In this document: positions 30,805 to 57,497 of the stretch, one piece after another
Layout: every line of letters begins with the position of its first letter
Numbering within the stretch: position 1 is the stretch's first letter
Source of the DNA: Fuerstiella sp.
Lineage (GTDB): Bacteria; Planctomycetota; Planctomycetia; Planctomycetales; Planctomycetaceae
Length of the DNA: 64,000 nt
NCBI GenBank assembly: GCA_022447225.1
Contig: JAKVAZ010000013.1
Location: 1 to 64,000, forward strand
Reading direction: 5' to 3'
Translations under genes and position numbers: made by a program
Notes under the pieces: generated by a model
What the model saw: only the letters and a program-made list of their open reading frames with translations
Databases searched by the model: none
Told to the model about the DNA's origin: nothing

Positions 30805-30853
30805 GCACCTTTGCTGTCATGTTTTTTTATGTTCTAAGTACAGAGGTGGTTTG

Positions 30854-31888
30854 ATGTTAACAAAAAAACAGTTGAAGTCCGGAAAGTCGCCGGGGTTCAC
30901 ATTGATCGAATTGTTGGTCGTGATTGCGATCATCGCGATTCTGATTTCCCTGCTTTTGCCGGCCGTTCAGCAGGCCCGCGAAGCGGCCCGACGGACTCAG
31001 TGTAGAAATAACCTGAAACAAATTGGATTGGCGTTACACAACTATCACGACGCTCACAATACCTTCCCTTGGGGACTTTATGCCGATGACACTTTCGGCT
31101 GGGGCGTCTACATTCTGCCGTTCCTGGATAACGGCGACGTGTATGATGCACTCAGTCCTGGAGATCCGACCGTCTGGACAATTATTGACTCGGACCCCGG
31201 AGATGATGATGCAAGTCACCAAACCCGAGGCATGATTCCGGACTGTGCGAACGGACCGGCGGCCATCCGTCAGCAGCTACCTGCCTTTATTTGTCCGTCT
31301 GTCATCTGGGCTCTTAACGACGCTCCAGCCGCAAGTTCATGTGGTGTTTCGGATTATTGCGGCAATCGTGGTTCCGGCAACATGACTGACGGTATCGGGG
31401 ACGACGACCGTGGTAATACCCATGGAATGCTTGGTCAGCTGTTGGACAAAAATGCAAACGTTGGCGGTGAAGGGATTGTCAAAATTCGTGACGTCACCGA
31501 CGGAACCAGCAATACCATCTTCGTGGGCGAAGTAAGGAATCACGATGACGACACGGGTAATCCAGCTGCCACAATTAATGACGACGACCTCCCGAATGCC
31601 GGTGGAAAGCGTTCCTTTTGGGCAGGGGTTTCCGGCGGTTTTGGCGGACGGCTTTGGGACAAACACATTCGTATGACCAATACCGAACATAGCATCAATC
31701 AGCTTCCGAAAGGTCTTAACCCCACTGGACCCAAAGACGGTGACTGGAGCTTTGGTAGTTTTCATCCAGGTGGAGCACAGTTTGCCTTCGGCGACGGCTC
31801 GGTTCATCTCTTGAGTGAAATGATGGCTGGCTCGGTTTACGAAAGACTTGGCTGCCGTGACGACGGTTTAATCGTCGGTGAATATTAA
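30854..31888 (+). CDS. DUF1559 family protein with prepilin-type N-terminus
   Basis: A 344-residue protein of the large planctomycete DUF1559 family. The N-terminus has a type IV prepilin signal: a basic leader, the cleavage site [20 protein letters not shown], and the long hydrophobic helix that packs in pseudopilins. It continues with the family's [15 protein letters not shown] and [15 protein letters not shown] segments, and ends with the conserved [11 protein letters not shown] motif. It is expected to be processed by a prepilin peptidase and to sit at the envelope; the function of the family is not established. AGAGGTGG at 30842-30849 sets the ATG at 30854 as start. A good promoter lies upstream and strong hairpins downstream, suggesting high expression. 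Confidence 0.95.
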
Positions 31889-31908
31889 AAGTACGTTTTC
31901 TCAAAGAC

Positions 31909-31935
31909 GACTTAGCTGCTGATTGCAGCTAAGTC
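31909..31935 (+). terminator. Hairpin after the DUF1559 gene (first of two)
   Basis: GACTTAGCTGC at 31909-31919 pairs perfectly with GCAGCTAAGTC at 31925-31935 around a TGATT loop. The 11-base stem begins 20 bases after the stop. No T tract follows, so alone it may protect the 3' end rather than terminate. Confidence 0.55.
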
Positions 31936-31955
31936 AGTTGAGACTGATTTCGCTG

Positions 31956-31989
31956 AGAAGTTCCGTCTTTTTTTAAAGGCGGAACTTCT
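31956..31989 (+). terminator. Long hairpin after the DUF1559 gene (second of two)
   Basis: AGAAGTTCCGTCTTT (31956-31970) pairs with AAAGGCGGAACTTCT (31975-31989), a 15-base stem with one G-U pair and a TTTT loop. A short TTCCTT follows. It is the likely terminator or attenuator between the DUF1559 gene and the lipoprotein gene, reducing but perhaps not blocking read-through. Confidence 0.6.
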
Positions 31990-32043
31990 TTCCTTGAACC
32001 GTTTCCGCTTGTTATTTTGTCAAATTAGTGAAGAGAGTAAAAA

Positions 32044-32607
32044 GTGAAAAGCCAGCTGCTATATTTGCCGTATCGGTTCATTACAACGGTGTTGCTCGGA
32101 ACGATGTGTGTGTTCGGTGCAGGTTGTGGCGTAGAAGGTGAAACCTTTGAGTACGTAACGATTCGCGGCACGGTGACTTGTGAGGGGAATCCTGTTCAAT
32201 CTGGTGAAGTGCGGTTTGCGCCTAGGGAGAAGCCCATAAACCAACCAGGGTCGCACCTGACCGGCAAGCCCGCCTATGCCAGCATCAAGTCGGACGGGAC
32301 GTATGTCCTCACCACGAGTACGGCGGGTGGCGTGCCGCAGGAAGGTGTTGTTGTTGGTGCGCATCGTATTTCCATCACCCCGTCCAGCAGACCGGTCACG
32401 GAAGTGCTGATGGTGGATGATGCGGATTCGGTGGAGGCGGAGGAGCTCGAAGAGGAGGCCGAGGAGGCTGGTTTCGATAATCCGCTCTTGATTCCGCTTC
32501 CCTGTGCCCAGGTGGCCGATCTGGATGTTTTAGTCACTGCGACGGACAGTGTGATTAACATTGAGATGTCCGGCGGAGGGAAGATCACCAAGGGCACTTC
32601 CGAATAA
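32044..32607 (+). CDS. Small lipoprotein with carboxypeptidase-regulatory-like domain
   Basis: A 187-residue protein with a signal peptide (hydrophobic FITTVLLGTMCVFGAG) ending in a cysteine at GAGC, likely a lipobox. The rest resembles the small Ig-like lipoproteins that follow DUF1559 genes in planctomycetes: an early beta strand VTIRGTVTCEGNPVQSGEVRF, SDGTYVLTT, and GAHRISITPS. A Glu-rich segment (EAEELEEEAEEAG) near residues 130-142 interrupts the domain. It starts with GTG at 32044 with AAGAGAG upstream. The pairing with DUF1559 is recurrent in this phylum, but the role is unknown. Confidence 0.8.
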   Translation: MKSQLLYLPYRFITTVLLGTMCVFGAGCGVEGETFEYVTIRGTVTCEGNPVQSGEVRFAPREKPINQPGSHLTGKPAYASIKSDGTYVLTTSTAGGVPQEGVVVGAHRISITPSSRPVTEVLMVDDADSVEAEELEEEAEEAGFDNPLLIPLPCAQVADLDVLVTATDSVINIEMSGGGKITKGTSE

Positions 32608-32726: not shown

Positions 32727-34313
32727 TTATCTGTCATCGGTTGATACCGGCTCGTCGGCTGAAGATTCCCAGTCGGTGCTGTAGATTCGCGGGTGATTCC
32801 TCAGAAACTGTGACCAGCCTTCGAGATTCGGTCCCCAGGGTGGTTCAGCAAGTGGCTCTGTGAGCGGTACGATCCAGTCTGCCGGCCAGATGTTGTAGGG
32901 CTCTCGTGCAAGATCAACCGTGGGATCAATCAGTCTTTGCGGACGGCGTCCGTTGATTGAAAGCCATCCGTCGACACGTATTTCGATCGGTCCCTTCAGC
33001 CCGCGACGACGCAACTCGTTCTGAATGTCGGCGTTGCCTGCCAGAAACCTGGCAAACTGCTGAATCATCCGTGGCTTACCCGCATATTTTTGGATTTGCC
33101 GTTTATTTAGGTATCCGCCTGGGTCGAGTTCCAGGGATCGACCGGTTGCCGGTTCATGAGCGAAAAAGCGGGCGACTCCGCGCTTGGAGCGAAGCATCAT
33201 GTGCCAGGAAAAACGGTGACCTTCTTCAGTCCAGTTGACATCTCCGGGATACAGATGGTGGCGAAAGGGGACGAGACACTGTAATCCCAGATACAAGGTC
33301 AGAATTGCAATTACTAATTTTTGTGGAGCTCCGAGTGTCACAACGGTCGAGTCTGCGATTTCGGCGGGCCGTACCTGTGTAAACCTGGACAGCAGGCGAC
33401 GAGGGACGTCGATTGGAAAGTAGATCAACGTTGCCAGCATCATCAGCCACGGAAAAATTCCAATATTGAACAGCAGGGTGTTGGTCATATGAAAGAAAAT
33501 CGTGACCGCGTAAGCCAGCAGGCGGGTTCGTCGCCACAGGATCATCGGGATCACCAGGAGGTCGTAAAACAGTCCTCCGTAGCTGAACAGGATTGCGGCT
33601 TCCCATGTGCGGAAAAACTCACTGATTGCGCCCGGGAACCAGTGGGCCTTTTCTGACAACCACAGATACATGGGCTCCCCCCGCAGCCAGTCGTGATTGA
33701 TTTTTGCGATCCCTCCGTAGAAGTACGGGATAGCGACCTGGAGCCTCAGTAGCCACAATGACCAGGCGGGCGCTACGTTCGAACGAATGCGGGGTCTGAT
33801 GAGGGCGTCGAGTGAAAATGCCTGGTGTGCAGGAAGAAAGGTCATCACCAGCGTCAGCAGACAGACCAGGTAGAAGTGGTTCAGGTAGTTGATCTGATTG
33901 AGCAGAAACAAATAGGTAAAACCCAGGAAGAACAGAAACATACTCAGGCGGTACATCAGGCCTGCAATGATGAAGACCGACAGAATGCCCATTATTCCAA
34001 GGAGAACCCACATTCCGTTGCCTGGAAGCGGCTGAACCCATTCAAAGCCCTGATATTTGAAAAGGAACGGATTGTTGATATTCCAGGAAAGCCGGTATCC
34101 CGAGTAATGCTTCCAAACCGTGTAGAGCATTTCGATGCCGAACAGGATGCGAAAGTATACCAGCCATCCATTGTCGACCGGTTTGAACAGAGCGCTGCTC
34201 CACGGCATTGATGTCCGTTGCTGCTCTGGCGACTTGTCCGGAACCTGATTTGGGGTCGCGGGTGCGTCAGTCAATGGGGCGGGATCCGTCGGACTGTGCC
34301 GTTTTGAAGTCAA
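32727..34313 (-). CDS. HTTM domain membrane protein (gamma-carboxylase-like), copy 1
   Basis: A 528-residue integral membrane protein of the HTTM family, related to vitamin K-dependent gamma-carboxylase. Many hydrophobic segments are visible, beginning near residue 80-140 (FRILFGIEMLYTVWKHY) with the conserved YLFLLNQINYLNHFYLVCLL and PYFYGGIAKINHDWLRGEPM. The conserved HFY and the GGIAKINHDWL segments are typical of the bacterial family. The C-terminal 180 residues are soluble. The start is a TTG with AGG 7 bases upstream; ATG at 34208 is an alternative. It is paralogous to the protein at 42245-43720: both share YLFLL(N/E)Q, GG(I/T)AK(I/L) and RRPQ(R/A)LIDP. It lies last in a six-gene minus-strand series. 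Bacterial HTTM function is largely unknown. Confidence 0.85.
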   Translation of the reverse strand: MTSKRHSPTDPAPLTDAPATPNQVPDKSPEQQRTSMPWSSALFKPVDNGWLVYFRILFGIEMLYTVWKHYSGYRLSWNINNPFLFKYQGFEWVQPLPGNGMWVLLGIMGILSVFIIAGLMYRLSMFLFFLGFTYLFLLNQINYLNHFYLVCLLTLVMTFLPAHQAFSLDALIRPRIRSNVAPAWSLWLLRLQVAIPYFYGGIAKINHDWLRGEPMYLWLSEKAHWFPGAISEFFRTWEAAILFSYGGLFYDLLVIPMILWRRTRLLAYAVTIFFHMTNTLLFNIGIFPWLMMLATLIYFPIDVPRRLLSRFTQVRPAEIADSTVVTLGAPQKLVIAILTLYLGLQCLVPFRHHLYPGDVNWTEEGHRFSWHMMLRSKRGVARFFAHEPATGRSLELDPGGYLNKRQIQKYAGKPRMIQQFARFLAGNADIQNELRRRGLKGPIEIRVDGWLSINGRRPQRLIDPTVDLAREPYNIWPADWIVPLTEPLAEPPWGPNLEGWSQFLRNHPRIYSTDWESSADEPVSTDDR

Positions 34314-34531
34314 TTGCAGGCCTCATGCGTTGTGTGCAGTCGGGCTAAGTTAAGCGTTGCCACAGAGTGAAACAACAGGCGACGCCCACTTGAAATCTTA
34401 ACACCACCGAGCCGGTGTCGGAATAAACCGCTGAACGAATTTGAGGGCATCTGAAAGCTTCATTCGCAACGTACTGCGAATCCCGTGACCGGATCAGTGA
34501 TGGCAGTACTGATCCGTACGTGTGTTTCGGA

Positions 34532-36355
34532 TTACTCGAGGGGCTCCAGGAACCAGTCCCTTTGATAAAGTGGCGGTACCTCAGGCTCCTGCAGGCCTTC
34601 ACCGGTAATCTGATCAATCGACCAGAGGCTTGTATAACCAATGAGACCGGGAAGCTCATCGTCAGCTGTGAACTGCAGAGCAGGGAGTGCGTCACTGGAC
34701 TTCATGCGGCCCAGACTGACGGACGACATGCGACGCACTTTGGGTTGCTCGGGTTCATCAGGATCTTTGTCGGTCATTCGATCTGCGAAAAGTTCCGTAA
34801 GATCCGAGGGTGCACTTCCGGCATAGAGATGCCCCAGCGACCAGATGGCAGCCGATCGGGGTTCGAAATGGAAACTGTTTTTGGGGATGTAGCGGCGAAG
34901 CAGCGTCTCTGATTCGGCAAATTTCATCTGGCCAAACATCTGAAAGATCTGCGAGACTTGTTCGGCGGTCCGGACATTTCTGCGATTGGAAGCAAGCTTT
35001 GTGTTTGTCATGCGTGTGGCGTAACCAAGCAAAGGATCCAGAGTATCGGGAATCGCCAGTTTTCTCAATGACCATGCTGCCGCCACGAATACTTCCGGAC
35101 GTTCGAATTCAAGCAGTTCAATGAGTCGGTCGGCAGCCGGTTCGTGGTCCAGGTTTGCTGCCAGAATCGCTGCCTGCTCCAGGCCCCGCCAGCTACTGGT
35201 TCTCAGCATATTCATCGTCTGTTCCCGGACCACGGTATCGAAATTTTCCGATGTGGAGAGATCGGCCAGTGACATACGAACGTAGCGTCGCAGGGCGGGA
35301 TGGGGATCATCCAGCATCGTTCCGATTTTCCTGATCGTATCGACCGACGGACGAGCGACGAGGGCCTCTGCTCCCAGTCGACGAACGTTGGCGTCAGCAC
35401 TGCTGATGATCTGATCTGACATAGAGACGATCAGATTGGGGTCGAGTTCCAGCAATCGCTGCAGCGCAACTGCGGCGACCGCCGGTTCCTGGTCAAGTGC
35501 CAGTTTCAGCAACAAGGACCGCGTTTCCTCGCTGCTGTGACGAGTCAAAAAATACGCCGATACCAGTCGGTCAATCAAACCTCTCGAAGATTGGTCAGCG
35601 GCCAGGGCCGCGGCAGGCTCTTCAAGCCCGCTCGTTTGAAGGATTGACACAGTCCTGGCCGCCTCCAGGCGAATGTCTGCCGGCTGCTCACGGTTGGTTG
35701 CCAACTCCAGCAAAGTGGCAGTTGCCCGAGTGTCTCCGACGGTTGCAATTCCGTTGATAGCAAGCAGCAGGGGGCGTCGCAAAAATCCAGGATCCGCCAG
35801 CCGGGCCAGCCAGACATCCCGAGCCGGTTCATAATCCCACCGGGCCAGTGCAGGTTCCACAAACTGTCTCGCGTTGCCGCCGGCAGTGCTGATATATTTT
35901 GAAAGGAGCGGTGCGGACACACGCGCATCGAGGACCACCAGGGCACGGGCGGCCGACAGACGGACGAGGGGGTGCTGCGACGTGTCCGAAAGAGTTTCCT
36001 CGATGACCGGGATTGTTTCTTTGAGTCCTGGCATGCCGAGTCTGTAGGCACGGACAATCGATTCGATCACTTTTCTTTTCAGATCTGCGTTATCGCGTTC
36101 GAGTACCGATAGCCACAGAGGTAAGAGCTTTGGCGAGAACCTGACTTCGCGCTGCGGGACTGTCAGGTCCGGATCCTGATCGAGAATGCTGTCGACGTCG
36201 TTGACATTCTGAGCCCTCAGGATTCCGGGGGTCAGCATCATGAACATGAGTAATGTCCGTATCCCGGCACCCCGAATAAACATAACGGGTGAGCTGAAGA
36301 CGGCCGAAGTCCGCTGGAGGAGTTGATGATTCAAACGTTGTGGATCGTGAAGCAT
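34532..36355 (-). CDS. Secreted HEAT-repeat protein
   Basis: A protein of about 607 residues, mostly alpha-helical repeats of the HEAT type: recurrent patterns such as LVRLSAARALVVLDA, RLEAARTVSILQ, AVAAVALQRLLEL and RRYVRMSLADLS. A signal peptide (GIRTLLMFMMLTPGILRAQ) precedes them. The start is uncertain: ATG at 36355 gives a long N-terminal region, whereas ATG at 36283 places the signal peptide at the very start. HEAT arrays bind partner proteins. The gene starts 17 bases after the ABC permease stop, so it belongs to the exporter operon and may act as its periplasmic partner. The array continues almost to the C-terminus, where a longer segment follows. Confidence 0.78.
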   Translation of the reverse strand: MLHDPQRLNHQLLQRTSAVFSSPVMFIRGAGIRTLLMFMMLTPGILRAQNVNDVDSILDQDPDLTVPQREVRFSPKLLPLWLSVLERDNADLKRKVIESIVRAYRLGMPGLKETIPVIEETLSDTSQHPLVRLSAARALVVLDARVSAPLLSKYISTAGGNARQFVEPALARWDYEPARDVWLARLADPGFLRRPLLLAINGIATVGDTRATATLLELATNREQPADIRLEAARTVSILQTSGLEEPAAALAADQSSRGLIDRLVSAYFLTRHSSEETRSLLLKLALDQEPAVAAVALQRLLELDPNLIVSMSDQIISSADANVRRLGAEALVARPSVDTIRKIGTMLDDPHPALRRYVRMSLADLSTSENFDTVVREQTMNMLRTSSWRGLEQAAILAANLDHEPAADRLIELLEFERPEVFVAAAWSLRKLAIPDTLDPLLGYATRMTNTKLASNRRNVRTAEQVSQIFQMFGQMKFAESETLLRRYIPKNSFHFEPRSAAIWSLGHLYAGSAPSDLTELFADRMTDKDPDEPEQPKVRRMSSVSLGRMKSSDALPALQFTADDELPGLIGYTSLWSIDQITGEGLQEPEVPPLYQRDWFLEPLE

Positions 36356-36372
36356 TGAGAATCGGATGAGGG

Positions 36373-38031
36373 TTACTGAGGACGGGTTAATCGCCAGGTT
36401 TGGGTGAGCAGTACTGCCAGCATGATCGCAGTCAGGCTTCCCATCATCCACCAGTTGGCGGTTACAAGATCATATTGTGTGAATCCGGGTGCCTTGATGG
36501 CTGAAAGTGCAGCCGCCATTGGATTCAGAGCCAGCGCCGTTTCTACGGTCGATCGTCCGAATGGTGCATCCTCGCCCAGCCAAACCAACATTGTGCCGGC
36601 AAACAGACTGAACAACATCACGTAGGTGGTTGTTGTTGCCGGTGCTGTCCGGGCAAACAGACTGCTGACTGTGGCACTGAGAACAACGACAAATCCGGCT
36701 GTTACCAGCAGGCAGGCAATCACCTGCTGGATTTGCAGACGCAGCCCCGGGTCGATGTACATCATCACTGCGTATCCCGGCAGTGTCGCCAGTAGTAACA
36801 GCAGGACCGGCCAGACGACGCTGAGCAGCTTGCCTCGCAGTATGGCGCCGGCAGTCAGAGGAGTCAGCAGCAGCATCCGCCATCCGCCAGTCTCCCGTTC
36901 CGCGCTGATTACTCCGACAGCGAGGCTCGGTGTCACAAGGACAATCAGCGCCACCTGCATCACAACCAGAATCCCTCCAATGGTCTGCACATCCCAGTCC
37001 ATCGTGCCAGTGGTCGTGAGAATCGACAGCGTCAGTGACAGGATGGTGCAGCCGGCAACCATCCGGAGCATCCAGTGCGACCGCCCAAAGCGACGACAGC
37101 GAAACTCCTTAACCATTACCGGATTGGCCCACCTGCTAATGGATGGCTTCCGTCGCTGTGGATCGACCAGATACAGTAATCGCCGTATCAGCCGGGTGGA
37201 TTCGGATTGATCGTCGGTGATGGCTCCCGACGATCGGGGACGATCGAGCATTGAAGAGTTCAGTCGGGTGACTGTGGCCAGCACATAGGCACCGGTGGTT
37301 ACTATCGAAAACAGAACGTAGCGCCAGGACGCGGACACCTCAGTGATTACTCCCTGTGAGCCGATATCTTCCTGTCCCAGTAATTCCATCACGGCCGGAA
37401 TCGGCGATACGCACTGCAACCAGGCAGCAAGTTTTGAGAGCAGGCCTGGCTGACCCTGAAGGAACAGGTGAGGGCCCAGGACAACCACCGTGGTGACCAG
37501 TACGAGTCCGTATGTAATTCGCAGGGAGGAGTCCGATGAGCCGGCGCGTGAACTGACGAACAGTCCCAATGTGGCATACTGAACAGCCACCAGCATCAGG
37601 ATTCCGTACAGGCCAAGCACACCTGTGACGAGGCCGACTCCTCCCATGGCATAACAGGTGACAGCAGCAGGCAGACTCATGACCAGCAGCATCAAAGCGA
37701 ATCCCAGAACGCCCGCCAGTTTGCCGACGTAGATTTTCCAGGGACTCATCAGAGTGTTGATTAAAAGCGCCAGGGTTCTGCCGGTCCGCTCTCGAACAAT
37801 TGATGTCGCCGGAAAAACCGGCACAAGCAGAATGAGCGTGGCCAGTAAGCCGTAACCAAACAAGCGAAACACCTGTCGAGACTGTGAGCCGGAAAGATCC
37901 ACTAACGCGTCCGTCGGCCAGCGCAGCAGTACGAGCAGAGCGAAGAACACAGCCACGCTGACCTGAAGCGCAAACGCTCTGCGTGTTCGCAGGATTCCCA
38001 CTAATTCACGGTGCAGGATCGGATTGTTCAT
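36373..38031 (-). CDS. ABC-2 type permease
   Basis: A 552-residue integral membrane protein with about twelve hydrophobic segments, roughly two blocks of six, resembling two fused ABC-2 permease halves. The first block begins with NNPILHRELVGILRTRRAF, typical of ABC-2 permeases acting with Gld/Nos-like ATPases, and contains ATSIVRERTGRTLALLINTLMSPWKIYVGKL. The second block begins near 300 (NPVMVKEFRCRRFGRSHW) with VISAERETGGWRMLLLTPLT. It overlaps the ATPase gene by 4 bases and is followed by the HEAT gene 17 bases later. The transported substrate is unknown; export of an envelope component is the usual role. Confidence 0.85.
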   Translation of the reverse strand: MNNPILHRELVGILRTRRAFALQVSVAVFFALLVLLRWPTDALVDLSGSQSRQVFRLFGYGLLATLILLVPVFPATSIVRERTGRTLALLINTLMSPWKIYVGKLAGVLGFALMLLVMSLPAAVTCYAMGGVGLVTGVLGLYGILMLVAVQYATLGLFVSSRAGSSDSSLRITYGLVLVTTVVVLGPHLFLQGQPGLLSKLAAWLQCVSPIPAVMELLGQEDIGSQGVITEVSASWRYVLFSIVTTGAYVLATVTRLNSSMLDRPRSSGAITDDQSESTRLIRRLLYLVDPQRRKPSISRWANPVMVKEFRCRRFGRSHWMLRMVAGCTILSLTLSILTTTGTMDWDVQTIGGILVVMQVALIVLVTPSLAVGVISAERETGGWRMLLLTPLTAGAILRGKLLSVVWPVLLLLLATLPGYAVMMYIDPGLRLQIQQVIACLLVTAGFVVVLSATVSSLFARTAPATTTTYVMLFSLFAGTMLVWLGEDAPFGRSTVETALALNPMAAALSAIKAPGFTQYDLVTANWWMMGSLTAIMLAVLLTQTWRLTRPQ

Positions 38032-39068
38032 TCCTGGCCTCCGGATTCGTCACTCCGGCCGGCTGCCGACGTCGACGGTGATTGCTTCCCTCTCTCGTCT
38101 GTTTTTCGTGCAACCGAAAGAAATACGTCCTCCAGATTACTCTGAATTTCACCGAACCGTGAAACAGCAATCCCGGCCGCCACCAGCTGACCCAGCAGCT
38201 TCGTGACATCTGCTTCGGATTTGACGGTCCGAAACCGCACGGTTGCCTCGGCCGCCGATGCGGTGATTTGAGGCGATTTTTCCTGGTCGACGAATTCGCG
38301 AACCACACGTGTGGCCTCATCGAGCTGATCTGCGGACAGGAGCTGTACTTCGATTGTTTGCTCCTGGCTAATCTCCCGCATGATTTCTTCCAGAGTACCA
38401 AATGCCCGCAAACGGCCGTGAGTGATCATCGCCACCTGGTCACAGATTCGTGCCAGTTCCGGCAGGATGTGGCTAGTCACAATCAGTGTTTTGCCCATCT
38501 CGGCCAGTCTCAGCAGCAATTCCCGCATCTCAATTCGTGCCTGGGGATCCAGGCCATTGGCCGGCTCGTCAAAGATCAGCACTTGGGGGTCGTGCAGAAG
38601 GGTACGGGCAATACCGACTTTCTGCTTCATTCCATGACTGAGTGTTTCGACATACCGGTCCTTCATATATGTTGACTGTGTCGTCTCCATCACGGCTTCA
38701 ATTCTCTTTCCGCGTTCTCCGCGGCCGATGCAGAATGCAGCTCCGAAGAAGTCCAGATATTCATGGACTCGCATATTGTCGTACGAGCCGAACGTATCGG
38801 GCATATAGCCCACCAACTGCCGAATCTGTCTTGCGTCACGAACGCAGTCGACTCCGGCGATGTAGGCCGACCCGCTGGTGGGTCGCGCAAGTCCCACCAG
38901 GATGCTGATTGCCGTGGTCTTGCCTGCGCCGTTGGGGCCGATCAAGCCCAGAATCCGGCCTCGATCCAGCTGCATCGACAACGAATCCAGGGCGGTAAAT
39001 TCACCGAAACACTTGGTCAGATTCTCCGTGACGACCACGGGGGAAGACTGTTCCATCCTGATACTCAC
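38028..39068 (-). CDS. ABC transporter ATP-binding protein
   Basis: A 346-residue ATPase of the ABC-2 exporter group (relatives of GldA, NosF and CcmA-like proteins). Seen are Walker A GPNGAGKTT, LSHGMKQKVGIARTL (signature), Walker B VLIFDEPANGLDP, and the switch TSHILPEL. A C-terminal extension after residue 225 of about 120 residues resembles the accessory domain of GldA-type subunits, ending in EIQSNLEDVFL. It overlaps the permease start by 4 bases, so the two are translationally coupled and form one transporter. Charged low-complexity residues close the chain. Confidence 0.92.
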   Translation of the reverse strand: MSIRMEQSSPVVVTENLTKCFGEFTALDSLSMQLDRGRILGLIGPNGAGKTTAISILVGLARPTSGSAYIAGVDCVRDARQIRQLVGYMPDTFGSYDNMRVHEYLDFFGAAFCIGRGERGKRIEAVMETTQSTYMKDRYVETLSHGMKQKVGIARTLLHDPQVLIFDEPANGLDPQARIEMRELLLRLAEMGKTLIVTSHILPELARICDQVAMITHGRLRAFGTLEEIMREISQEQTIEVQLLSADQLDEATRVVREFVDQEKSPQITASAAEATVRFRTVKSEADVTKLLGQLVAAGIAVSRFGEIQSNLEDVFLSVARKTDERGKQSPSTSAAGRSDESGGQE

Positions 39069-39186
39069 GTATTTATTTCGTATTGAAGACTAAAAAAGGG
39101 CCTGTCCTGACAACACGGGACGGGACAGTCTGGTAGAGACTTGGTGATTGCAATCACCGGATTCTTGGGCAGGGCAGTTTCAGCGA

Positions 39187-41835
39187 TCAGGGCTCAAGTG
39201 TCTCTCCCTCCGCCTCGACCCGCAGCGAATCAATCCTCCACAGGTTAATCGAACCCGCATCAATGTTTTCAATTGTCGCTTCGTTACCCTCGGGAACGAA
39301 CACAAAGATCCCCAGCGTTAAACCGCCCTTCTCATCGAGCACCAGTGAATTCGTACGGTCTACTTCCAGTGTCACACTTCCGACAGGAGATTGATTACTG
39401 GCAATCACAACAGGCTCGTCTTCTGTTTCCTGCGCGATTTCAATTCGCGTGACAGGACCGGTAATACGGATCATCACAGCCACCCGGCTAAGTTTCATCG
39501 GGAGAACTTCATCCGGGAACTGCACCCGCAGCCATGTCTTGGTCGAAGTCTGCTTTTCCACCCATTCCCCGGTGCGGTTCATATAGGTGGAAGAAGAAAC
39601 TCTTCCCTGAGCCGTACGATAAGGAAGAAACGGCGACGGTATCGCCACCTGGGTGTTCGGCGATGTGCGTTCCATAACCAGTGGAATGGCAAACAGGGCC
39701 GTACCCAGTATGCGGGTTTGCTCGGGAAACTCGAACCCGGTTGCAACAGATGGTCCCCAGGCAAACAGTGTGGGCCGATCAGGGTAGGGGGTGTCGGTTA
39801 CTCGCGGCATCAACCGTCGATAGATTTCCTGTCGGCGGCGCTGTTCATCACTTAGCAGACTGGTGGAGACGAATTCACCCTGGGCCAGTACGTCATCGCT
39901 GTTGACGGTAAATTCTCCCGTTGACGACATCTGAACCGAGAGACTTTGACGACCGGGGGTCGCAACCACGATATCAGTCAGTTCGTCAGGAGATGATGTT
40001 GATACCTGGCCCTCAAATCCGCCGGGGCCAAAACGGCCTCTGGCCTGAACCGGAGTGGGGGCCGTTGCGGTGAGTTCAAAAGTTGCTGACTGTTCCCCCG
40101 GAGGCAACGTCATGTTCTCCCAGTGCCAGGAGCCCAGATCTGTCGACAGCATACGAATCGCTCTGCCTCGTGATTCATCGGAATGCGGAACCAGGACACC
40201 ACCGTTTGTCGCTGCGATTGTGGACTGCGCGGGACTTTGGTAATACAGACTTGCCACACCGGATACCTGCAGGGCATCGCTGCCCGCAGCGGTCTGCACG
40301 AACTGCATTTGCGCCAGCGTGTTCGGCACGGCCTGTTTTAGGGATGCCCCCTTCAACGCAATTGCCGCCGCCGCCGCGACGGCAATGGTCGGCCCCAGCC
40401 ATCCGAGCTGTTCAAGTCGTCCTCGTCGGATCAGCCAGAGTCCGCCAAAGAGCACTCCACTGCAAAACGAGGCCAGGGTGGCTGCGACAACTCCACGACC
40501 GGCAATGCGGTACCCAATCTGTTCGGCCAGCATCGGGGCGAAATCTTCGGTTGGAACCGGTGGCGGGACCGACGGCTGAAAGAATCGGTCAGCCAGCGTC
40601 TGCAGAGGGAGGGTTGCCAGGTAGTTTGATGAGAACAGCGGCTTGGTGACAACTTTCTCGTCCGGCGGACGAGACCGAAACCACCCTCGGGGGCCGAGCG
40701 TGGTAAACAGAATCTCTCCCTGACCAGCTCTCTTCCAGAAAGCTGCCGGCCAGCCGTTGACTGAATAGGCCACTTCACACCGGCCACTCATGACACGCAG
40801 AAGTTGCACGGGCTCTTCGAATTGACGGAGCTCACCATCAGGTGTTTCGTAACCCTGTTGTTGTCCTTTAATCTGCAGTTCAGTGAGACCGACCTGATCA
40901 ACCACCTGACAGTCAAATGTCTCACCCAGTAACAGGCTAACGGTCTCAGGCTTCAGCTGGTCGAGCATGACCCACAGCCGGCCACCCGAGTGCAGCCAGT
41001 CACGTATCGCTGTCAGCCCCGCCGTATCTTCAGCGATACGGTCGCCGGAGACGATCAGCTGATCCATAGCCTGCAATTCGACCCCTGATGCCGGCAGGAA
41101 ATCGTCTAGGTATTCAGAGACCACGCGCGAGCGTCCCGTTGCAATCCTTGCTGCCATGGACAACTCCATGGCCTCCTCGTCCGCACCGACATCCTGATCG
41201 CTGATTGACTTGGTCACGACGGGTTGCCAGCCGGCGGGAAGAATTCCGTCGTCAAACATCCGTCCCTCGCGGGTCTTCACAACTACACCGTCTCCGTCAG
41301 CCGAATCGAGTAGCATCGTTTTGACGTCGTAGCGATTATTCTCGGGGACTTTCTGTCCCGGAGGCAGGATCATCACTGTCGACCGATGGACACTCAGAGG
41401 TGGTAGCCACAAACTCTTGGCATACTGAAGATTGGGGTCGTTGGCGAAGTGTGTCGCAACGACCACCTCTCTGTCCGTGTCCGCCCTGTTAACGACTTCA
41501 ACACCCATCGTTCCCCATTTTTGCGGCATGTAGTGGCCGACTCCGGCGGGCACGGCCGCCCGACGCAGGGCGGGCGGTCGGACAGTGTTGTTCTGAGCAA
41601 TGCAAAACGGCAGAGAGTGCACAGCAGCTGTGATCCACAACAGGCACAGAACTGGCAGTCGCACGCGAAATCTCTTAACGCGGTCTGTCCTCGCCCGAAT
41701 TTGAGCTAACTCCAGGAAAAACTCCCGACAGTTACTTCGTATATGTGCACAGAACGTTAAGAACCCGGACCAAAAGTAAGTGACCCTCTGCATCATCGGA
41801 CCTGCAGGGAGAGAAAACTTGTCAGCACCCACCAT
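39187..41835 (-). CDS. Large membrane protein with GATase-like domain, exporter-linked
   Basis: A protein of about 882 residues, not assignable to a named family. It has an N-terminal hydrophobic segment (RLPVLCLLWITAAVHS), then a large extracytoplasmic region. At about residue 235-300 there is a segment like the alpha/beta GATase-type domains of envelope proteins (DQLIVSGDRIAEDTAGL, IRDWLHSGGRLWVMLD). Two close hydrophobic segments lie at about 475-525 (VVAATLASFCSGVLFGGLWLI). Its C-terminal 350 residues look beta-rich. The start is uncertain: ATG at 41835 has GGGGAG upstream; ATG at 41796 and 41865 are alternatives. The gene precedes the ATPase gene by 118 bases in the same direction and resembles in layout the GldG-like accessory subunits of ABC-2 exporters, an inference. 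Confidence 0.65.
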   Translation of the reverse strand: MVGADKFSLPAGPMMQRVTYFWSGFLTFCAHIRSNCREFFLELAQIRARTDRVKRFRVRLPVLCLLWITAAVHSLPFCIAQNNTVRPPALRRAAVPAGVGHYMPQKWGTMGVEVVNRADTDREVVVATHFANDPNLQYAKSLWLPPLSVHRSTVMILPPGQKVPENNRYDVKTMLLDSADGDGVVVKTREGRMFDDGILPAGWQPVVTKSISDQDVGADEEAMELSMAARIATGRSRVVSEYLDDFLPASGVELQAMDQLIVSGDRIAEDTAGLTAIRDWLHSGGRLWVMLDQLKPETVSLLLGETFDCQVVDQVGLTELQIKGQQQGYETPDGELRQFEEPVQLLRVMSGRCEVAYSVNGWPAAFWKRAGQGEILFTTLGPRGWFRSRPPDEKVVTKPLFSSNYLATLPLQTLADRFFQPSVPPPVPTEDFAPMLAEQIGYRIAGRGVVAATLASFCSGVLFGGLWLIRRGRLEQLGWLGPTIAVAAAAAIALKGASLKQAVPNTLAQMQFVQTAAGSDALQVSGVASLYYQSPAQSTIAATNGGVLVPHSDESRGRAIRMLSTDLGSWHWENMTLPPGEQSATFELTATAPTPVQARGRFGPGGFEGQVSTSSPDELTDIVVATPGRQSLSVQMSSTGEFTVNSDDVLAQGEFVSTSLLSDEQRRRQEIYRRLMPRVTDTPYPDRPTLFAWGPSVATGFEFPEQTRILGTALFAIPLVMERTSPNTQVAIPSPFLPYRTAQGRVSSSTYMNRTGEWVEKQTSTKTWLRVQFPDEVLPMKLSRVAVMIRITGPVTRIEIAQETEDEPVVIASNQSPVGSVTLEVDRTNSLVLDEKGGLTLGIFVFVPEGNEATIENIDAGSINLWRIDSLRVEAEGETLEP

Positions 41836-42244
41836 TAGACGTGTAGCTCCCCGTTCAATAAACATATTATGACAGGACGTGACAGGACGTGACAGGACGT
41901 GACAGGATTTGAGCAGGGATTGCCATATTGCCGGTGCAGCCAAGCTGGCAGCTCATACACGTCAACAGCAAACCAACTTTGCGAAGTATTGTCAAACAGA
42001 AATGGCTGACGGTTTGAAAGATCGAAAACGAACCTGTAATTGACCATTCGGCGACGTGTCACCACAGCATGATATTCCGGCTGTCCCGGGCGAAAGTGCG
42101 TTTCGGCGTAACTACTCCTGCACTACGTGCACGGATCGCGTTCCGATACAGGACGCCGTTCGAGACCCGGCGCGCGTTGGTTGAAGGTGGCATTGAACCG
42201 TGGTGACAGGCATTCGGTGTCAAACCGTTTGGCGGTCTCAGTTG
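41836..42244. other. Intergenic stretch upstream of the large membrane protein gene
   Basis: About 410 bases between two minus-strand genes. It holds the 10-base tandem repeat. No other feature was recognised. Confidence 0.4.
41871..41910. repeat. Tandem 10-base repeat
   Basis: GACAGGACGT occurs three times in a row at 41871-41900, followed by the degenerate copy GACAGGATTT at 41901-41910. It lies just upstream of the start codons considered for the large membrane protein gene, and could change promoter spacing or 5' leader length by slippage. Confidence 0.9.
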
Positions 42245-43720
42245 TCATTTCTGCGAATTAGTTTTTCCGGTATTCGAATGATGGCTCAGCAGCACGTCCC
42301 ACTGGTGTACGGGCAGCGTCCAGGTTTCCTCGCGCAGCGGCTCTTTCAATGGCAGGATCCATGGTTTGTGCCGCAGTGATCGGTGTTCGGCCGCCAGATT
42401 AATTTTCGGATCGATCAATGCCTGCGGCCTTCGTCCGTTGAGCGACACCAGCATGCTGGCGCGGATCTCAACCTGATCTTCCGGTGATGTTTTTAGTTGC
42501 TGTGCAAGGAATTTGCTGAATTGCAGGACCATATCCGGATCCTGAAGACGAACAGCCTGGTACCTGGCCAGGTAAGGCTTGGGGTTGACATTGACGGTTT
42601 GCCCCGTTTCTGTATGTGTTGCGATAAAATCGAGGCGAACTTTCTTTTCACGCAGCATCATCCGCCAGGCGAATCTGGCGCCTTCTTCCGTCCAGTCGAC
42701 ATTGCCTGTGTAAAGAAAGTGTCGGAACGGAGCCAGCAACTGGACGCTCACGTATGCGCCCAGTCCGACGACAATAAGTTTCTTTTTCAGCGAGAGACTT
42801 CCATTGCCGCTGCTGTCGACCCTTTCAACAGCAGTTCGACGTCGTTGCCGCCAGAGGTACCGGGGCCATTCCGGTCGAAAGAATACCGTCGTCGCTCCAA
42901 TCATCAGCCACGGGAACACACTAATGTGGAACAGCGCCGCATTCGCCAGGTGAAAAGCTACGGACAGAATGAAAGCCGTTTTTTGAGTCCGCTGCCATAA
43001 GAGCAGAGGGACGACGAGCAGGTCAAACGCGAGTGAGCCCCAGGCAAAGAAAAAGATCATCCAGTCCTGATCGACGTAAGGTCCGATCAGCGGATACCCC
43101 CCCTTGTCGGCCAGCAACAGTCGTATGGGAGCTCCCTGCAGCCAGTCGCCGCTGAGTTTTGCCGTGCCTCCAAAGAGATAGGGGATCCCGATCTGAATTC
43201 TAAGGATCCACAGTGCCCATGCCGAAACAGCTGCCGATCGAATTGTCGGTACGCGAATGGCATCGACAGCAAATGCCCGGTGTGCCGGCAAAATTGCCAT
43301 CAGCAGACCAATGAGCACGATCAGGTAATTGTGATTTTGATAGGATGTTTGTTCCAGTAGAAACAGATAACTAAAACACGCACACAGGAATGGGGCAGCG
43401 ATCCGATAGTAAAAGCCGAATGTGACACAGATCGACAGTGCCACCATCACGACAAAGTGAATGTACATGCCGGCACCGGGCCAGGGGCGTATCCACTCAA
43501 AACCGTACCAGGTGAAGTGAAATACGGGGTCGATGTACAGTCGTTTAATCCAGCCTTCATCGCTGATGATTAAAGACGATGCGTACCACAACATTGTCAG
43601 TCCATAGACGATGCGGAAGAACGCCAGAAAAGATATATCCACAGGGACAAAGAGCTGACGCGAGACCGCGTGAGAGACAGAAACCAGACGGTTTTTTAGG
43701 GGACTGCTGACGGATTGCAT
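42245..43720 (-). CDS. HTTM domain membrane protein (gamma-carboxylase-like), copy 2
   Basis: A 491-residue integral membrane protein homologous to the one at 32727-34313. Many transmembrane segments are visible, including FLAFFRIVYGLTMLWYASS at the start, AAPFLCACFSYLFLLEQTSYQ, LLVVPLLLW and HLANAALFHISVFPWLMIGA. Conserved with copy 1: the YLFLL(E/N)Q segment, PAHRAFAVDA, PYLFGGTAKLSGDWLQG and GRRPQALIDPKINLA. ATG at 43720 is preferred to a GTG at 43756. It is the first gene of the minus-strand series that ends with copy 1. Bacterial HTTM proteins have no settled function; a modification reaction similar to carboxylation is inferred only from the family. Confidence 0.85.
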   Translation of the reverse strand: MQSVSSPLKNRLVSVSHAVSRQLFVPVDISFLAFFRIVYGLTMLWYASSLIISDEGWIKRLYIDPVFHFTWYGFEWIRPWPGAGMYIHFVVMVALSICVTFGFYYRIAAPFLCACFSYLFLLEQTSYQNHNYLIVLIGLLMAILPAHRAFAVDAIRVPTIRSAAVSAWALWILRIQIGIPYLFGGTAKLSGDWLQGAPIRLLLADKGGYPLIGPYVDQDWMIFFFAWGSLAFDLLVVPLLLWQRTQKTAFILSVAFHLANAALFHISVFPWLMIGATTVFFRPEWPRYLWRQRRRTAVERVDSSGNGSLSLKKKLIVVGLGAYVSVQLLAPFRHFLYTGNVDWTEEGARFAWRMMLREKKVRLDFIATHTETGQTVNVNPKPYLARYQAVRLQDPDMVLQFSKFLAQQLKTSPEDQVEIRASMLVSLNGRRPQALIDPKINLAAEHRSLRHKPWILPLKEPLREETWTLPVHQWDVLLSHHSNTGKTNSQK

Positions 43721-44614
43721 CGTGGGCACACTATCTTGATCTGGGGTCCGGATCACCGCGACCCGGCTACAGGCGGCTTGTCGCGGACTTTGATTCGTAC
43801 CCCGACCCTTGTGAAGCGACCCGGGTGTCGCTCAAATATTTTGTACTTGGGATATCGCGACACCAATGGATGGGATTCGTACCGAATTCCGGGCCATGAG
43901 TAAAGGGGATCCGTCCGGACGGTACGCTGACAGCCGGCCGCCGGTGAGGACTGGAGCAGGTAGCAATTCTGTTGTTGCCCCTGGCTCACGGTCCTGCAGC
44001 AGAATGGCCTGTCCATGTTTTGTAAGTCTATATTTATAATGAGCTTGCGGCGACAGCGCGGTGGTTGAAGAAGCTGGCAGTGGCTGTGTTGAACGTTTCA
44101 CGCAATGCCGGATTTTTCTGTTCGGTTGACAGAAGTCCACGATCATTTAAAAGCGGTGACTCAGGTATTTCGGGCCTTTGGCCAAATCAGTTTCATTGAT
44201 TTCTAAGTACGTCGCGGCTGTCCCGGTTGCTGTCTGTATCAGGAATCGGTGCGGTGTCTCTACAGCTCAGGCTGCGGCGGAAGATCATGCCGCAGTTACT
44301 TGAGCGGCTTGCCGGTTTGAATCCGGTTGAGCCGGAACGCAGAACTGTTTATGGCGTGTCCAGGATCAGTTGGTGACGTACAAACAAAGCCGAAAGAAGG
44401 CCCGCCGGTGTTGCGAAGAAATTTTGGCTGAATTCCCCGGCTGTCTGACTGATCACACAAGCCGCGGCAACTGACCGGATTGCGGGTCTGGAGTTATCCA
44501 ACGCCGGTTTGCCATCAATGAATCCGGCGGAGAGATTTTCAAAACTGATCGAATAACGTGGCGATACAGCTCAAAAAAGTGGTCACACTAATGAAGCGCG
44601 GAGCAGACTGAATC
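43721..44614. other. Long intergenic stretch, no gene seen
   Basis: About 890 bases between divergent genes, so both promoters should lie here. A 33-codon frame at 44105-44206 reads smoothly but has no ribosome binding site. No repeat, tRNA or clear promoter was found. Confidence 0.45.
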
Positions 44615-47600
44615 ATGAGTGAGAGAAACCGACATCCGTTCGTCAACAGTCCATCGATTGTTGCTACGGTCGCCATCGTTGTCGTGCTTGCACAGGCTGC
44701 CTCACAATCACCGGCAACTGAGCCGGAAGGTCTCGTTGGCCACTGGTCATTCAATGACGGTACGGGCAGGGACTCATCCGGTAACGAGCAGTTGGCCGGG
44801 TTGGGTGGAGCGAAAATATTCTCGCTGGGAGACGGTCAGGCCTGTCTGCAGTTTGCTGAAGAAGTCGATCCTCTGCGGATTCCTGTCTCGCCAGAGTCCC
44901 CGGCTGCTATCGAAAGGGGGACTGTCAGCTTCTGGATGAGTACGTCCAGCGATCGGACCAGCATCATCAGGTTCAATAACCGAGCCGTTGAATTGAATTC
45001 GTATCGTGGCGACTTTCAGGCTCGGTTTCGTGGCAACGACGACTTCAGGTACGGAACGCTGGTGATGGATTATGACTGGCCAAAGTACGACATGCGAGAA
45101 TTCGCCTTCTATGGACATCCTCGGGCGGCCGTTGGCGATGCTGAGTGGCATCATTTTGCGGTTGCTTACGATGATCAGGTGGGAAAGATCATCGGTTGGC
45201 GGGATGGGCAGCTGATCGCGGTCGTTGATCTGTCAACCGTGGGTCCGGAACCGCTGATGCGACAGGGATTGAGCGAAATTACGGCCGGAGAGGAATTCAT
45301 TGGTTTCCTGGATGATTTGCGGATCTACAACAGGGTGCTGTCCGACAGTGAACTGCGGTCTGTCTATTCGTCAACCCGCTCAGTGTATGCCGATCGCCGT
45401 GACACGAATCATCCGGATCGGCCCATGAAGTCCTACAGGTTTCAGGAGCAGGATCGCACGCTGTATCGTGCGTGGCTCCAGTATCACCCGCCTGCACGTG
45501 AACAGGGTCGCGAGTTACTGAAGACCATCGTCGCCGAAGGCCGGCATTCCACAGTCCGGACAGCAGCATCGGAGTTGAAAGATGCCGTCAGATCCATGTT
45601 CTCATTTACGCCGTCGGTGACCGAACAGGCTGATTCCGGCACAAAAGTAGTACTTGGCACACCCGCAACGTCCAGCTGGATTCGCAGTCACGCCGACCAG
45701 TTGGGGCTTGACCGCATCGCGGATGACGGATTCGTGATCAGGACTGTATCGTCAGGGGAAAGTTCCACGCTGGTTGTGGCAGCACGTATTCCGGCAGGTG
45801 TGATCTTCGGCACGTTCGATCTGATCCGGCGCATACAAACCGGACAGGACCCGCGGCAGCTGGACGTGTTCGAGAACCCTGCAATTCCCATTCGCATGGT
45901 CGATCACTGGTCATATTTCCGAGGTGTCTTCGGTGACAGATGGCGCGGTGGCGGCCGGGACAATTCGATCTTCAGCTGGGAGGAGTTAAGGACGGGTGAT
46001 ACCAGGCAGATTCGCGACTGGGTCCGCATGATGGCCTCAGCCGGCTGGAATGCCATTTGTCCCTGCGAAGTGAACTGGCACTACCGAGACAATTTTCTTG
46101 ATCACCTGGACGAAGTCGAAGTCCTTGCGGAAATCCTGCGGGATTACGGCATGAAACTGTACTGGAGCCCCAGTTATCTTCTGGCGCTCGACCAGAGTAC
46201 GGCGGACGCGTTGTATGCGCGCGTCCCTGACTTTGGCGGGTACATGATGAAGCTGGGGTCAGAAAAACAGAATGGCCACCCCGGGCCGCCGATGGTGAAT
46301 CGTATTGCAGACACCGTTATGCCCTGGGGGGGGACGGTGCTTGTTCGCGGGTTCGTTTACGGCAATCTGCGTTACACGCCGGAACCGTATCGCACTTTGA
46401 TTCCCCACGACATTTTTGCGCCGAAAGACGGAGAATATCGAGAGAATGTGATTATTGTTCCCAAGGGCAGTGCCGGTGACTGGGACTACTCCGCGCCCAT
46501 TCCGGCAATTGATGGGGCGCTGCAAAAAAATCTGTCCGGAAGTGAACAGGTCATCGACAAGAAGTTTCCCAGTTCCTGGGTAGAAAAATGGAAATGGTGG
46601 CTGGAGCAGGATCATTATCACGATGGTCCCGGTAGCCTGAACAAGCTGAATGTGGACTGTATCATGGGCGTTTCCATGATCAGTCCCTCACCCTCGTGGA
46701 CATCAACTCCGCTGAATATGGTCAACTACTATGGCCTGGGCCGGCTGGCCTGGAATCCTGATCGAACTGTTGACGAAATTTATACGGAGTGGATTCAGCA
46801 GACATTTGGCCACGACCCGGAAGTGGTTGACATTATCCGGGACATCCTGCTGATTTCGGACGATGCAGCCCGAAAACTTTATATGTACAGGGGTTACCGA
46901 GGAATCTGGATTGACAAAGGTGATGTCGGCCTGGTCGAACGCAAATTACCCTACGTGATCAACCGTCACGGGATCGGGCCGACCAGTTCCCGACTGCAGC
47001 AGCGGGTGCTCAGTCAGTACTCAGCCGGCCTTCGCGATGTTTTCGCTGATCCGTTGCGCAGTGAAGAGTACCTGTCTGCCTTTCACTTCAAACGTCACGA
47101 CTACCGATTGTCCATTGGTCGGACACTGATCGAGGACGTCTACGGGGGTATGGAAGAAGCAGTGGATCTGGCCGCAAAGATGGTTCGTCTCTGGTCGGGG
47201 CTGGAAAACAGGATTGACGACCGTCGATATGAGTACACCCGTGAAGCGCTTGTCGAATTTGCTGAAGACGCACGCATCACTCGCGACGCGACAGCAGCCG
47301 CATTCGAAAAGTACACCGGCCGGGATCGCAAAGAAACTCTGGCTGGTCTGACTGCTGACGGCCTGGCGAGAGTTCAGGTTTGGAATGTACGGCATTTCGG
47401 AGCCGGTGAGCACGCCGCGACGAACGATGCTCCGGCGTTCAACGCGGCGATTGATGCCTGTTCATCTGCCGGTGGTGGTACTGTGTTTGTCCCGACGGGA
47501 ATCTACCCGGTCGGGACCATTCACCTCAAAAGTAACATTACGCTGGTGCTTGATAAGGGGGCCATCCTCAGAGCCGCTGACGGGCACATGGACTCCCGGG

Positions 47601-55804: not shown

Positions 55805-56138
55805 CGATCGTTATGCTCGTGACTCCCCCCGGTGTTACGGGCTGTTTGCAACGATCTTCCTTATTCGTCACGAACAGGTCACTATTGCACCGGCCTGGAA
55901 TGCGGTTGTTTTCGCGACGGACGATATGCTGATCCATGACCGCAGTGGTTATGGTGGTGATGTGCAGACTGCATCGTTTTCTTCGTAGCTGCGGATCCCC
56001 TTTCAGGTTTGGCGTCCTGCTTCTCAACATCCGTTAAGTTTGTTTTTTGTTATCTCAGCAGGCGAAAACATTCGGAGAGTCTGACTACCATCATTGCTCG
56101 TGGTTTCCATCGCTTCTGCCCCATGCAAGACCTTCTCA
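55805..56138. other. Intergenic stretch, no gene seen
   Basis: About 330 bases between two plus-strand genes. Nothing was recognised. Confidence 0.4.
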
Positions 56139-57497
56139 ATGCGATTTTTCCTGTCTTCTGTGTTGATCGTACTGCTGCTTTTTGTGTCCGTCGGATTACG
56201 GGCAGAAGATCGGGTGTCGTCCGTTCGCGTGACGCCGCTTGTTCCGGTCGAAGAGCAGTGGAAGCCCAGCGCCGTACCTGACCGCATTGTGATCAGCTGG
56301 AGTGACGATCCGTCGACCACGATGTCGGTTACCTGGCGCACAGACACTACGGTCCGACAGGCGGTTGCTGAGATTGCTCCGGCGGAAGGTGGTCCGAAGT
56401 TCGTCACCAGCAGCAAATCCATCGACGCCTCATCGCAGTCGCTGGAAACGAATTTGGGACCTTCGCTGAGGCACACTGTGACATTCCAGGGACTGAAGCC
56501 TCAGCATGAGTATCTGTACCGTGTCGGTGACGGGACCAACTGGAGCGAGTGGGCTGATTTTCGGACGGCCTCGTCGGAAGCTGCACCGTTTAGTTTTGTG
56601 TATTTTGGAGATGCTCAGAATGACGTGAAGTCACACTGGTCACGTGTTGTGCGGCGAGCCTTTCGTGATGCTCCCAGGGCGTCATTCTTTCTTCATGCAG
56701 GTGATTTGATTAACCGATCTGATAACGATGCAGAGTGGGGTGAGTGGTTCTATGCGGGGGGCTTCATTCATCGATCCACTCCGTGTGTCGCGACACCTGG
56801 CAATCATGAATTCGGACGTGTGGGAGATACCGATCAACGTCGTCTCTCTATTCACTGGCAGCCTCAGTTCGCGTTTCCTCAAAATGGTCCGGACGGGCTC
56901 AGGGAGACAGCCTACTGGTTTGACTTCCAGGGAACACGGATCGTCTCACTGAACTCGAATGACAGGATCGAGGAGCAGGCGGAGTGGCTGGATGCTGTGC
57001 TGACAGACAATCCAAATCAGTGGACTGTGATGACGTTCCATCATCCGATGTACTCGGCCAGCGCCGGCCGTGACAATCCCCGTCTGCGCGAGTTGTGGCA
57101 ACCCGTTATCGATAAACACCATGTGGATCTTGTTCTGCAGGGTCACGACCACACGTACGCCCGTTCTCAGCTGATGACAGCTGAAGTGAACCTGATCACG
57201 GGAGTTTCTCATCAGGATCCGAATACGGGGACTGTTTATGTTGTGTCGGTGAGTGGTCCAAAAATGTATGAATTGGGTCGTCGACCGTTCATGCGGCGAG
57301 CTGCCGAGGATACGCAATTGTATCAGATCATCAGGATCGACGGTGTGCAGCTGATCTACGAAGCCCGCACAGCTGTCGGCGAACTTTACGACGGTTTTTT
57401 GCTACGCAAAGACGAGGGCGCGAAACGCACTCTGATCGAACAGATTCCGGGTCTCCGTGAATCACGACGTCCGGAAAGTGAACGTCGGAAAAAGTGA
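56139..57497 (+). CDS. Purple-acid-phosphatase-like metallophosphoesterase
   Basis: A 452-residue exported enzyme. Signal peptide (FLSSVLIVLLLFVSVGLRA), then a fibronectin-like N-terminal domain typical of purple acid phosphatases (about 50-150, RIVISWSDDPSTTMSVTWRT and LKPQHEYLYRVGD), then the calcineurin-like catalytic domain. Metal-ligand blocks appear in order: VYFGDAQND, FLHAGDLIN, ATPGNHEFG, MTFHHPMYS and LQGHDHTYARS, the five motifs of the family. It would release phosphate from organic esters outside the cytoplasm, perhaps for phosphorus supply. ATG at 56139 is chosen for the signal peptide, though no strong ribosome binding site is seen. It stands alone on the plus strand. Confidence 0.92.
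   Translation: MRFFLSSVLIVLLLFVSVGLRAEDRVSSVRVTPLVPVEEQWKPSAVPDRIVISWSDDPSTTMSVTWRTDTTVRQAVAEIAPAEGGPKFVTSSKSIDASSQSLETNLGPSLRHTVTFQGLKPQHEYLYRVGDGTNWSEWADFRTASSEAAPFSFVYFGDAQNDVKSHWSRVVRRAFRDAPRASFFLHAGDLINRSDNDAEWGEWFYAGGFIHRSTPCVATPGNHEFGRVGDTDQRRLSIHWQPQFAFPQNGPDGLRETAYWFDFQGTRIVSLNSNDRIEEQAEWLDAVLTDNPNQWTVMTFHHPMYSASAGRDNPRLRELWQPVIDKHHVDLVLQGHDHTYARSQLMTAEVNLITGVSHQDPNTGTVYVVSVSGPKMYELGRRPFMRRAAEDTQLYQIIRIDGVQLIYEARTAVGELYDGFLLRKDEGAKRTLIEQIPGLRESRRPESERRKK

Follow-up and report, generated by a model that had tools for sequence, protein, structure and literature searches.

We describe here two proteins of the marine planctomycete Fuerstiella sp., VKGC1 and VKGC2, encoded on a 64,000-nucleotide stretch of its genome (contig JAKVAZ010000013.1; the whole stretch is called the window below, and all coordinates refer to it). 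Judged by sequence, and for VKGC1 also by a predicted fold, both are complete homologues of gamma-glutamyl carboxylase (VKGC/GGCX), which in humans is the vitamin K enzyme behind the activation of clotting factors, and related genes recur in class Planctomycetia next to genes for a DUF1559 prepilin-like protein and a small lipoprotein. We lean towards the reading that VKGC1 and VKGC2 are menaquinol-dependent carboxylases of the cell envelope, with the DUF1559 protein and the lipoprotein as likely partners and perhaps substrates, and that the ABC transporter module lying between the two genes is a separate system. We know of no accepted bacterial protein containing gamma-carboxyglutamate (Gla). 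Bacterial GGCX homologues and HTTM proteins were already known; the association of VKGC genes with DUF1559 and the lipoprotein is new as far as we have searched, and was not found in the open-licence literature covered. At the recurrent locus an enzyme that keeps its catalytic centre is encoded together with two exported proteins, its candidate partners, which makes the role of bacterial GGCX homologues directly testable.

Both proteins carry an HTTM domain (267 bits in VKGC1, 256 bits in VKGC2) and a VKGC_lumenal_dom (150 and 148 bits), all over the Pfam cut-offs. The lumenal domain, with E values of 3e-43 and 8e-44 in the two proteins, had been overlooked in an earlier note on this DNA, which had mentioned gamma-carboxylation and gliding as links by family similarity only; the carboxylase link now has full-length homology, fold and the residues Lys218, His160 and Asn159 behind it, and the gliding link was rejected for the ABC genes (see below). 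VKGC1 aligns to human GGCX over residues 56-514 (phmmer, E 5e-35). Its model, built with 35 aligned sequences (pLDDT 89, pTM 0.88), scores between Z 23 and Z 33 against 16 GGCX entries, with the next chain at Z 7.3; the best match has Z 33.1 and an rmsd (root mean square deviation) of 3.7 over 455 aligned residues at 26% identity. This fold comparison was made with the VKGC1 model only.

In an alignment with the human protein, N159, H160, K218, D222, W223, F286, H287, N290, F299 and W399 are invariant in all 53 bacterial homologues, and the catalytic Lys218, Asn159 and His160 together with most residues of the vitamin K pocket are kept in both window copies. Roles for K218, N159, H160, F286, F299, N290 and W223 in GGCX are described in passages of PMC12589487. 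Human GGCX (PDB 9wfc, 9bur, 9l6q) thus resembles VKGC1 in its membrane and lumenal domains, in its K218/N159/H160 centre and in most of its quinone pocket, but differs at K217, Y395, H404 and R406, all of which are exchanged in the window proteins, and in length. The latter have 491-494 residues, and since the sequence alignment ends near human position 514 and the structural one near 547, VKGC1 and VKGC2 are predicted to be compact and to lack the Arch-like part. Among other relatives, the SdpB/HTTM-only family TIGR04033 has the HTTM membrane domain in common with both and no lumenal domain; VKGC1 reaches 16.9 bits in that family against a cut-off of 178.4, and VKGC2 gives no match. The vitamin K carboxylase homologue of Leptospira reportedly has altered activity. 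This bacterial GGCX homologue is mentioned in part of PMC4555120.

The earlier note had called the two HTTM proteins paralogues. They are 40% identical, and in the tree each groups with its orthologue in a second Fuerstiella genome and not with the other copy, on which grounds a recent tandem duplication flanking the ABC module was rejected. The motif GRRPQxLIDP is indeed present in both, but is a feature of the VKGC family and not of the pair: the 35-row VKGC consensus reads NGRKPQLLIDP at this site, and human GGCX reads NDRFQQRIFDP. Tandem VKGC pairs occur in several genomes (loci L022, L066 and L070). A third HTTM protein of the window's genome (L172, 6085-7674) has no PF22777 match, and no DUF1559 or lipoprotein neighbour within the stretch read.

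Clustering of the open reading frames (ORFs) around VKGC genes returned a DUF1559 prepilin-like family and a small lipoprotein family recurrently, and a purple-acid-phosphatase-like family less often. In Planctomycetia, DUF1559 and the lipoprotein both lie within 3 kb of 29 of the 50 VKGC genes (27 of 44 loci). The same pair is found within that distance of 7 of 60 random points (Fisher p 4e-7), which were placed in 20 regions regardless of genes, and of 3 of 18 GATase-like genes (p 0.003), with the profiles applied alike to all sets. The phosphatase lies within 3 kb of 12 of the 50 VKGC genes, and of none of the 18 GATase-like genes or 60 random points; it adjoins VKGC in other genomes and is 12 kb from VKGC1 in the window. 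At 19 of the 44 loci the order DUF1559, lipoprotein, VKGC runs along one strand, at several of them with overlapping or near-overlapping frames, and in another family of the class the three-gene unit is present at 2 of 2 loci. The 44 loci and 50 genes are mostly the top-scoring of 86 VKGC matches with E<1e-30, and were counted after removal of duplicates (L024-L026), VKGC fragments below 380 residues, lipoproteins without a recognised lipobox and DUF1559 proteins without the GFTxxE motif. A contig scan of named genomes gave 9 loci only.

As the DUF1559 and lipoprotein profiles were trained on VKGC neighbours, a separate, independent count was made. The lipoprotein profile, trained on 18 VKGC-linked sequences, scores above 100 bits for 68 proteins in 150 genomes of the family, and 38 of these, 18 of them outside the training set, are encoded no more than 6 kb from a VKGC lumenal domain. 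Conversely, 40 of all 86 VKGC matches with E<1e-30 have a lipoprotein of at least 100 bits within 6 kb. At four loci (L037, L041, L050 and L071) a longer array recurs, made up of DUF1559, lipoprotein, VKGC, phosphatase, an unnamed gene, DUF1501 and a large unnamed gene; the lipoprotein of L071 was not called by the clustering.

The three genes also vary together. Pairwise distances over 38 loci correlate between VKGC and DUF1559 (r 0.73) and between VKGC and lipoprotein (r 0.74), as they do over 27 non-redundant loci (r 0.50 and 0.43), and none of 5000 permutations reached any of the four values. In the six pairs of paralogous loci that lie inside one genome, all three genes are divergent, so that the correlation does not reflect species descent only; these pairs come from loci with known genome labels, with L073-L083 and the window locus left out.

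The VKGC-linked proteins differ from their generic relatives. Two neighbouring alignment columns are Asp in 26 and 28, respectively, of the 34 linked DUF1559 proteins; the corresponding numbers for the 43 generic proteins are 0 and 3. The linked proteins have further acidic columns that are rare or absent in the generic set; Glu density does not mark them (p 0.16). Among the lipoproteins, at least three cysteines are present in 26 of 34 linked and 5 of 33 generic sequences (p 5e-7), and acidic stretches are denser in the linked set (p 3e-5). The generic lipoprotein loci comprise 9 chosen for high scores and another 20 chosen for middling ones.

The DUF1559 protein of the window is a full member of this planctomycete paralogue family (PF07596), with a prepilin N-methylation motif, a DUF1559 body, an H-X9-DG C-terminus, and TIGR04294 and TIGR02532 over cut-off. 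Among 18 DUF1559 ORFs read in its own genome it is the only one to which the linked profile gives a higher score than the generic profile does (+5.6 bits; the others, -7 to -56 bits), and its counterpart in the second Fuerstiella genome scores -2.4 bits; Fuerstiella was omitted from the training of both profiles. Passages of PMC2754498 count 74 DUF1559 genes in R. baltica, and passages of PMC10632474 count 68 in P. limnophila, where they are the largest paralogue group and of unknown function. If the link to VKGC is true, it would give a first handle on what DUF1559 proteins do.

The window lipoprotein has a Glu-rich insert (residues 118-154) in which 29 of 37 positions are identical between the two Fuerstiella genomes, compared with 76 of 148 in the rest of the protein (p 0.003). 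The core of its model is a helix beside a beta sandwich. For the model, Foldseek returned weak transthyretin-like matches only (best E 1.4e-3, none below 0.001). A single-sequence search found no paralogue in its own genome at E<0.1; the profile search gave five matches there at E<=1e-5, four of them other, weaker members of the family. By eye, the stretch between the DUF1559 and lipoprotein genes shows a long hairpin (about 31950-31995) whose loop contains a run of T.

We propose the following mechanism. By homology with GGCX, VKGC1 and VKGC2 would be inner-membrane proteins whose active site faces outward. Menaquinol and O2 would give rise to a strong base at K218, the base would deprotonate the side chain of a Glu (or Asp), and addition of CO2 would yield Gla; chemistry of the human type seems likeliest because the menaquinol pocket and the Lys/His/Asn centre are kept. 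Menaquinone is a plausible co-substrate, since the window's genome has two matches of the MqnA/MqnD type for menaquinone synthesis. The likely partners, and perhaps targets, would be two exported acidic proteins: the pilin-like DUF1559 protein, and the lipoprotein, which has additional cysteines and an acidic stretch in the form of a loop or tail. For Fuerstiella, the pair at 30851-32607 would partner VKGC2, and the modified proteins might bind calcium at the cell surface. That the partners are substrates rather than co-factors is our hypothesis. A stronger form of the proposal is that Planctomycetia have a vitamin-K-dependent carboxylation system of their own, in which menaquinol-driven carboxylases dedicated to DUF1559 and the cysteine-bearing acidic lipoprotein yield calcium-binding surface proteins containing Gla (or carboxy-Asp). 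To this we give distinctly less credence, as a tentative possibility; if true, it would be a bacterial counterpart of the vertebrate Gla proteins with enzyme and substrates encoded in one locus.

Several observations weigh against carboxylases with these partners. Human Tyr395 is replaced by Ala in VKGC1 and His in VKGC2, the K217 position is Ala in 50 of 53 homologues and the R436 position is variable. Several linked lipoproteins carry Asp in place of Glu, and their Glu density is not significantly higher than in generic ones (p 0.087). The pair is missing beside 21 of the 50 VKGC genes, window VKGC1 included, and is convergent with VKGC2, hence in no single operon, in both Fuerstiella genomes. 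Outside Planctomycetia it stands beside VKGC at 0 of 17 loci and for 0 of 6 non-planctomycete genes, and the best profile lipoproteins also occur in 17 of 99 genomes without a strong VKGC match. One VKOR-family gene lies elsewhere in the window's genome, but VKOR does not follow VKGC, being present in 24 of 51 genomes with a strong VKGC match and 32 of 99 others (p 0.11), with no support either when all VKGC genomes are taken (p 0.08). Doubt arises chiefly from the exchange of Y395, from many of the partners being rich in Asp rather than Glu, from the 21 genes without the pair and from the convergent order in Fuerstiella. As for the first, the Tyr395 position is His in 37 of 53 homologues and Tyr in 3; most bacterial members thus have another residue here, so that we do not regard Tyr395 as family-defining, and its exchange would matter only for the human mode of Glu binding.

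The replacement of this Glu-binding Tyr in both copies, the variable R436, the excess of Asp over Glu in the linked proteins and the reportedly altered activity of the Leptospira homologue would all fit enzymes that bind menaquinol and act on or with the DUF1559/lipoprotein pair without carboxylating Glu, for instance by oxidation, folding assistance or another modification. We regard this as rather unlikely, as the invariance of K218, N159, H160 and most of the quinone pocket in all 53 homologues would be hard to explain without base chemistry. We consider it improbable that the neighbourhood is a co-inherited gene cassette with no functional link. The pair is abundant enough in these genomes to turn up at random points, as noted above, but such a cassette would account poorly for the enrichment beside VKGC, the one-strand order, the co-variation of three genes that extends to divergent paralogous loci inside one genome, and the residues found only in the linked proteins.

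In the proposal of envelope carboxylases with exported partners, the module between the two genes would be an exporter in its own right, conserved widely, whose place between the two copies arose within Fuerstiella. The earlier note had suggested that the ABC exporter and the HTTM proteins could form one system, yet each occurs without the other, the pattern by which that note would have judged the association to be chance. PF22777 is found in 58 and the GATase-like gene of the module in 92 of the 150 family genomes, and the presence of VKGC (E<1e-30) and of the GATase-like gene is independent (odds ratio 0.97, p 1.0). Of the 31 family genomes that have both, only 2, each a Fuerstiella, place them side by side, and VKGC plus the module was rejected as a unit; the nearest other pair is 26 kb apart (G064). 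A third Fuerstiella genome has a module of the ABC/GATase-like type and no VKGC. Across 392 genomes of the phylum, 36 contain VKGC and at least 16 contain the GATase-like gene (a lower bound, as at most two candidates per genome were scored), and the two are adjacent solely in the window's genome. Colocation was judged by reading coordinates in both sets, and many genomes are fragmented, so that adjacency may escape detection at contig ends. Because VKGC and the module recur apart across both sets, the bracketing of the module by VKGC copies is a local arrangement of the genus Fuerstiella.

Within 17 control loci from other genomes of the family (L005-L021), none of which has a VKGC match, the set of GATase-like, ATPase, permease and HEAT genes keeps its order in 8; it is rearranged in L019, and the others have GATase-like and HEAT genes alone, fewer genes, or a cut at the contig end. 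In L013, L016, L018 and L009 the GATase-like and HEAT genes stand together with no ABC ATPase or permease detected, and their proteins may act without the transporter. Membership of the gliding (Gld) system was rejected for the ABC genes: like GldA and GldF they are an ABC ATPase and an ABC-2 permease, but they score 203.3 bits against a GldA cut-off of 402.6 and 35.4 against a GldF cut-off of 288.5.

The features of the window are collected in the table. The six minus-strand ORFs between 32727 and 43756 noted earlier were recovered, and Pfam backs HTTM in both end genes, the HEAT repeats, the ABC-2 permease and the ABC ATPase; no Pfam family was found in a scan of the GATase-like protein, whose label is therefore provisional. 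The overlap of permease and ATPase is correct, as is the 17-base gap between permease and HEAT genes if the latter starts at its proposed ATG.

Table 1. Features of the window, with strand and basis of assignment.
Feature	Coordinates	Strand	Basis and remarks
VKGC1, gamma-glutamyl carboxylase homologue (predicted)	42245..43720	-	491 aa from ATG 43720; HTTM and lumenal domain (Pfam), phmmer, model
VKGC1 ORF as open frame	42245-43756	-	ATG at 43720
VKGC2, second, non-sister carboxylase homologue (predicted)	32727..34211	-	ATG 34211; frame open from TTG at 34313; Pfam, active-site residues, tree
GATase-like protein, ABC module	39187..41943	-	ORF; start uncertain; in 92/150 family genomes
ABC ATPase, ABC module	38028..39068	-	PF00005
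ABC-2 permease, ABC module	36373..38031	-	PF12698, PF12679; overlaps ATPase by 4 bases
HEAT-repeat protein, ABC module	34532..36355	-	PF13646; frame 34532-36451, ATG at 36355
Small lipoprotein	32044..32607	+	Lipobox ...GAGC; convergent with VKGC2; beta sandwich; Glu-rich insert at residues 118-154
DUF1559 prepilin-like protein	30851..31888	+	PF07596, 172 bits; N_methyl; H-X9-DG C-terminus
Purple-acid-phosphatase-like gene	56094..57497	+	Pfam; PAP profile 759 bits; 12 kb from VKGC1

Spacing within the ABC module runs from the 4-base overlap up to 118 bases, and the VKGC genes are separated from it by at least 218 and 301 bases, so the spacing does not suggest a single transcript for all six genes. 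A scan for promoters and terminators did no better on the window than on shuffles. Fuerstiella sp. ALOHA_ZT_14 has all six genes in identical order at 70-89% identity, and dN is well below dS in each of them between two Fuerstiella genomes; among the planctomycetes compared, the order is conserved in these two genomes only. This order and the low dN/dS speak for a joint system of HTTM proteins and ABC exporter, but adjacency confined to the two genomes, independent presence, a third genome of the genus with the module and no VKGC, and gaps of at least 218 bases at both ends of the module make such a system highly improbable.

A 10-base unit, CACGTCCTGT (minus strand), is repeated head to tail in three copies at about 41868-41906, where the GATase-like gene was proposed to start, and makes that start doubtful. 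The ORF 44615-48799 (1394 aa) combines a laminin-G-like domain, a GH67 alpha-glucuronidase and a beta helix resembling pectate lyase and GH28.

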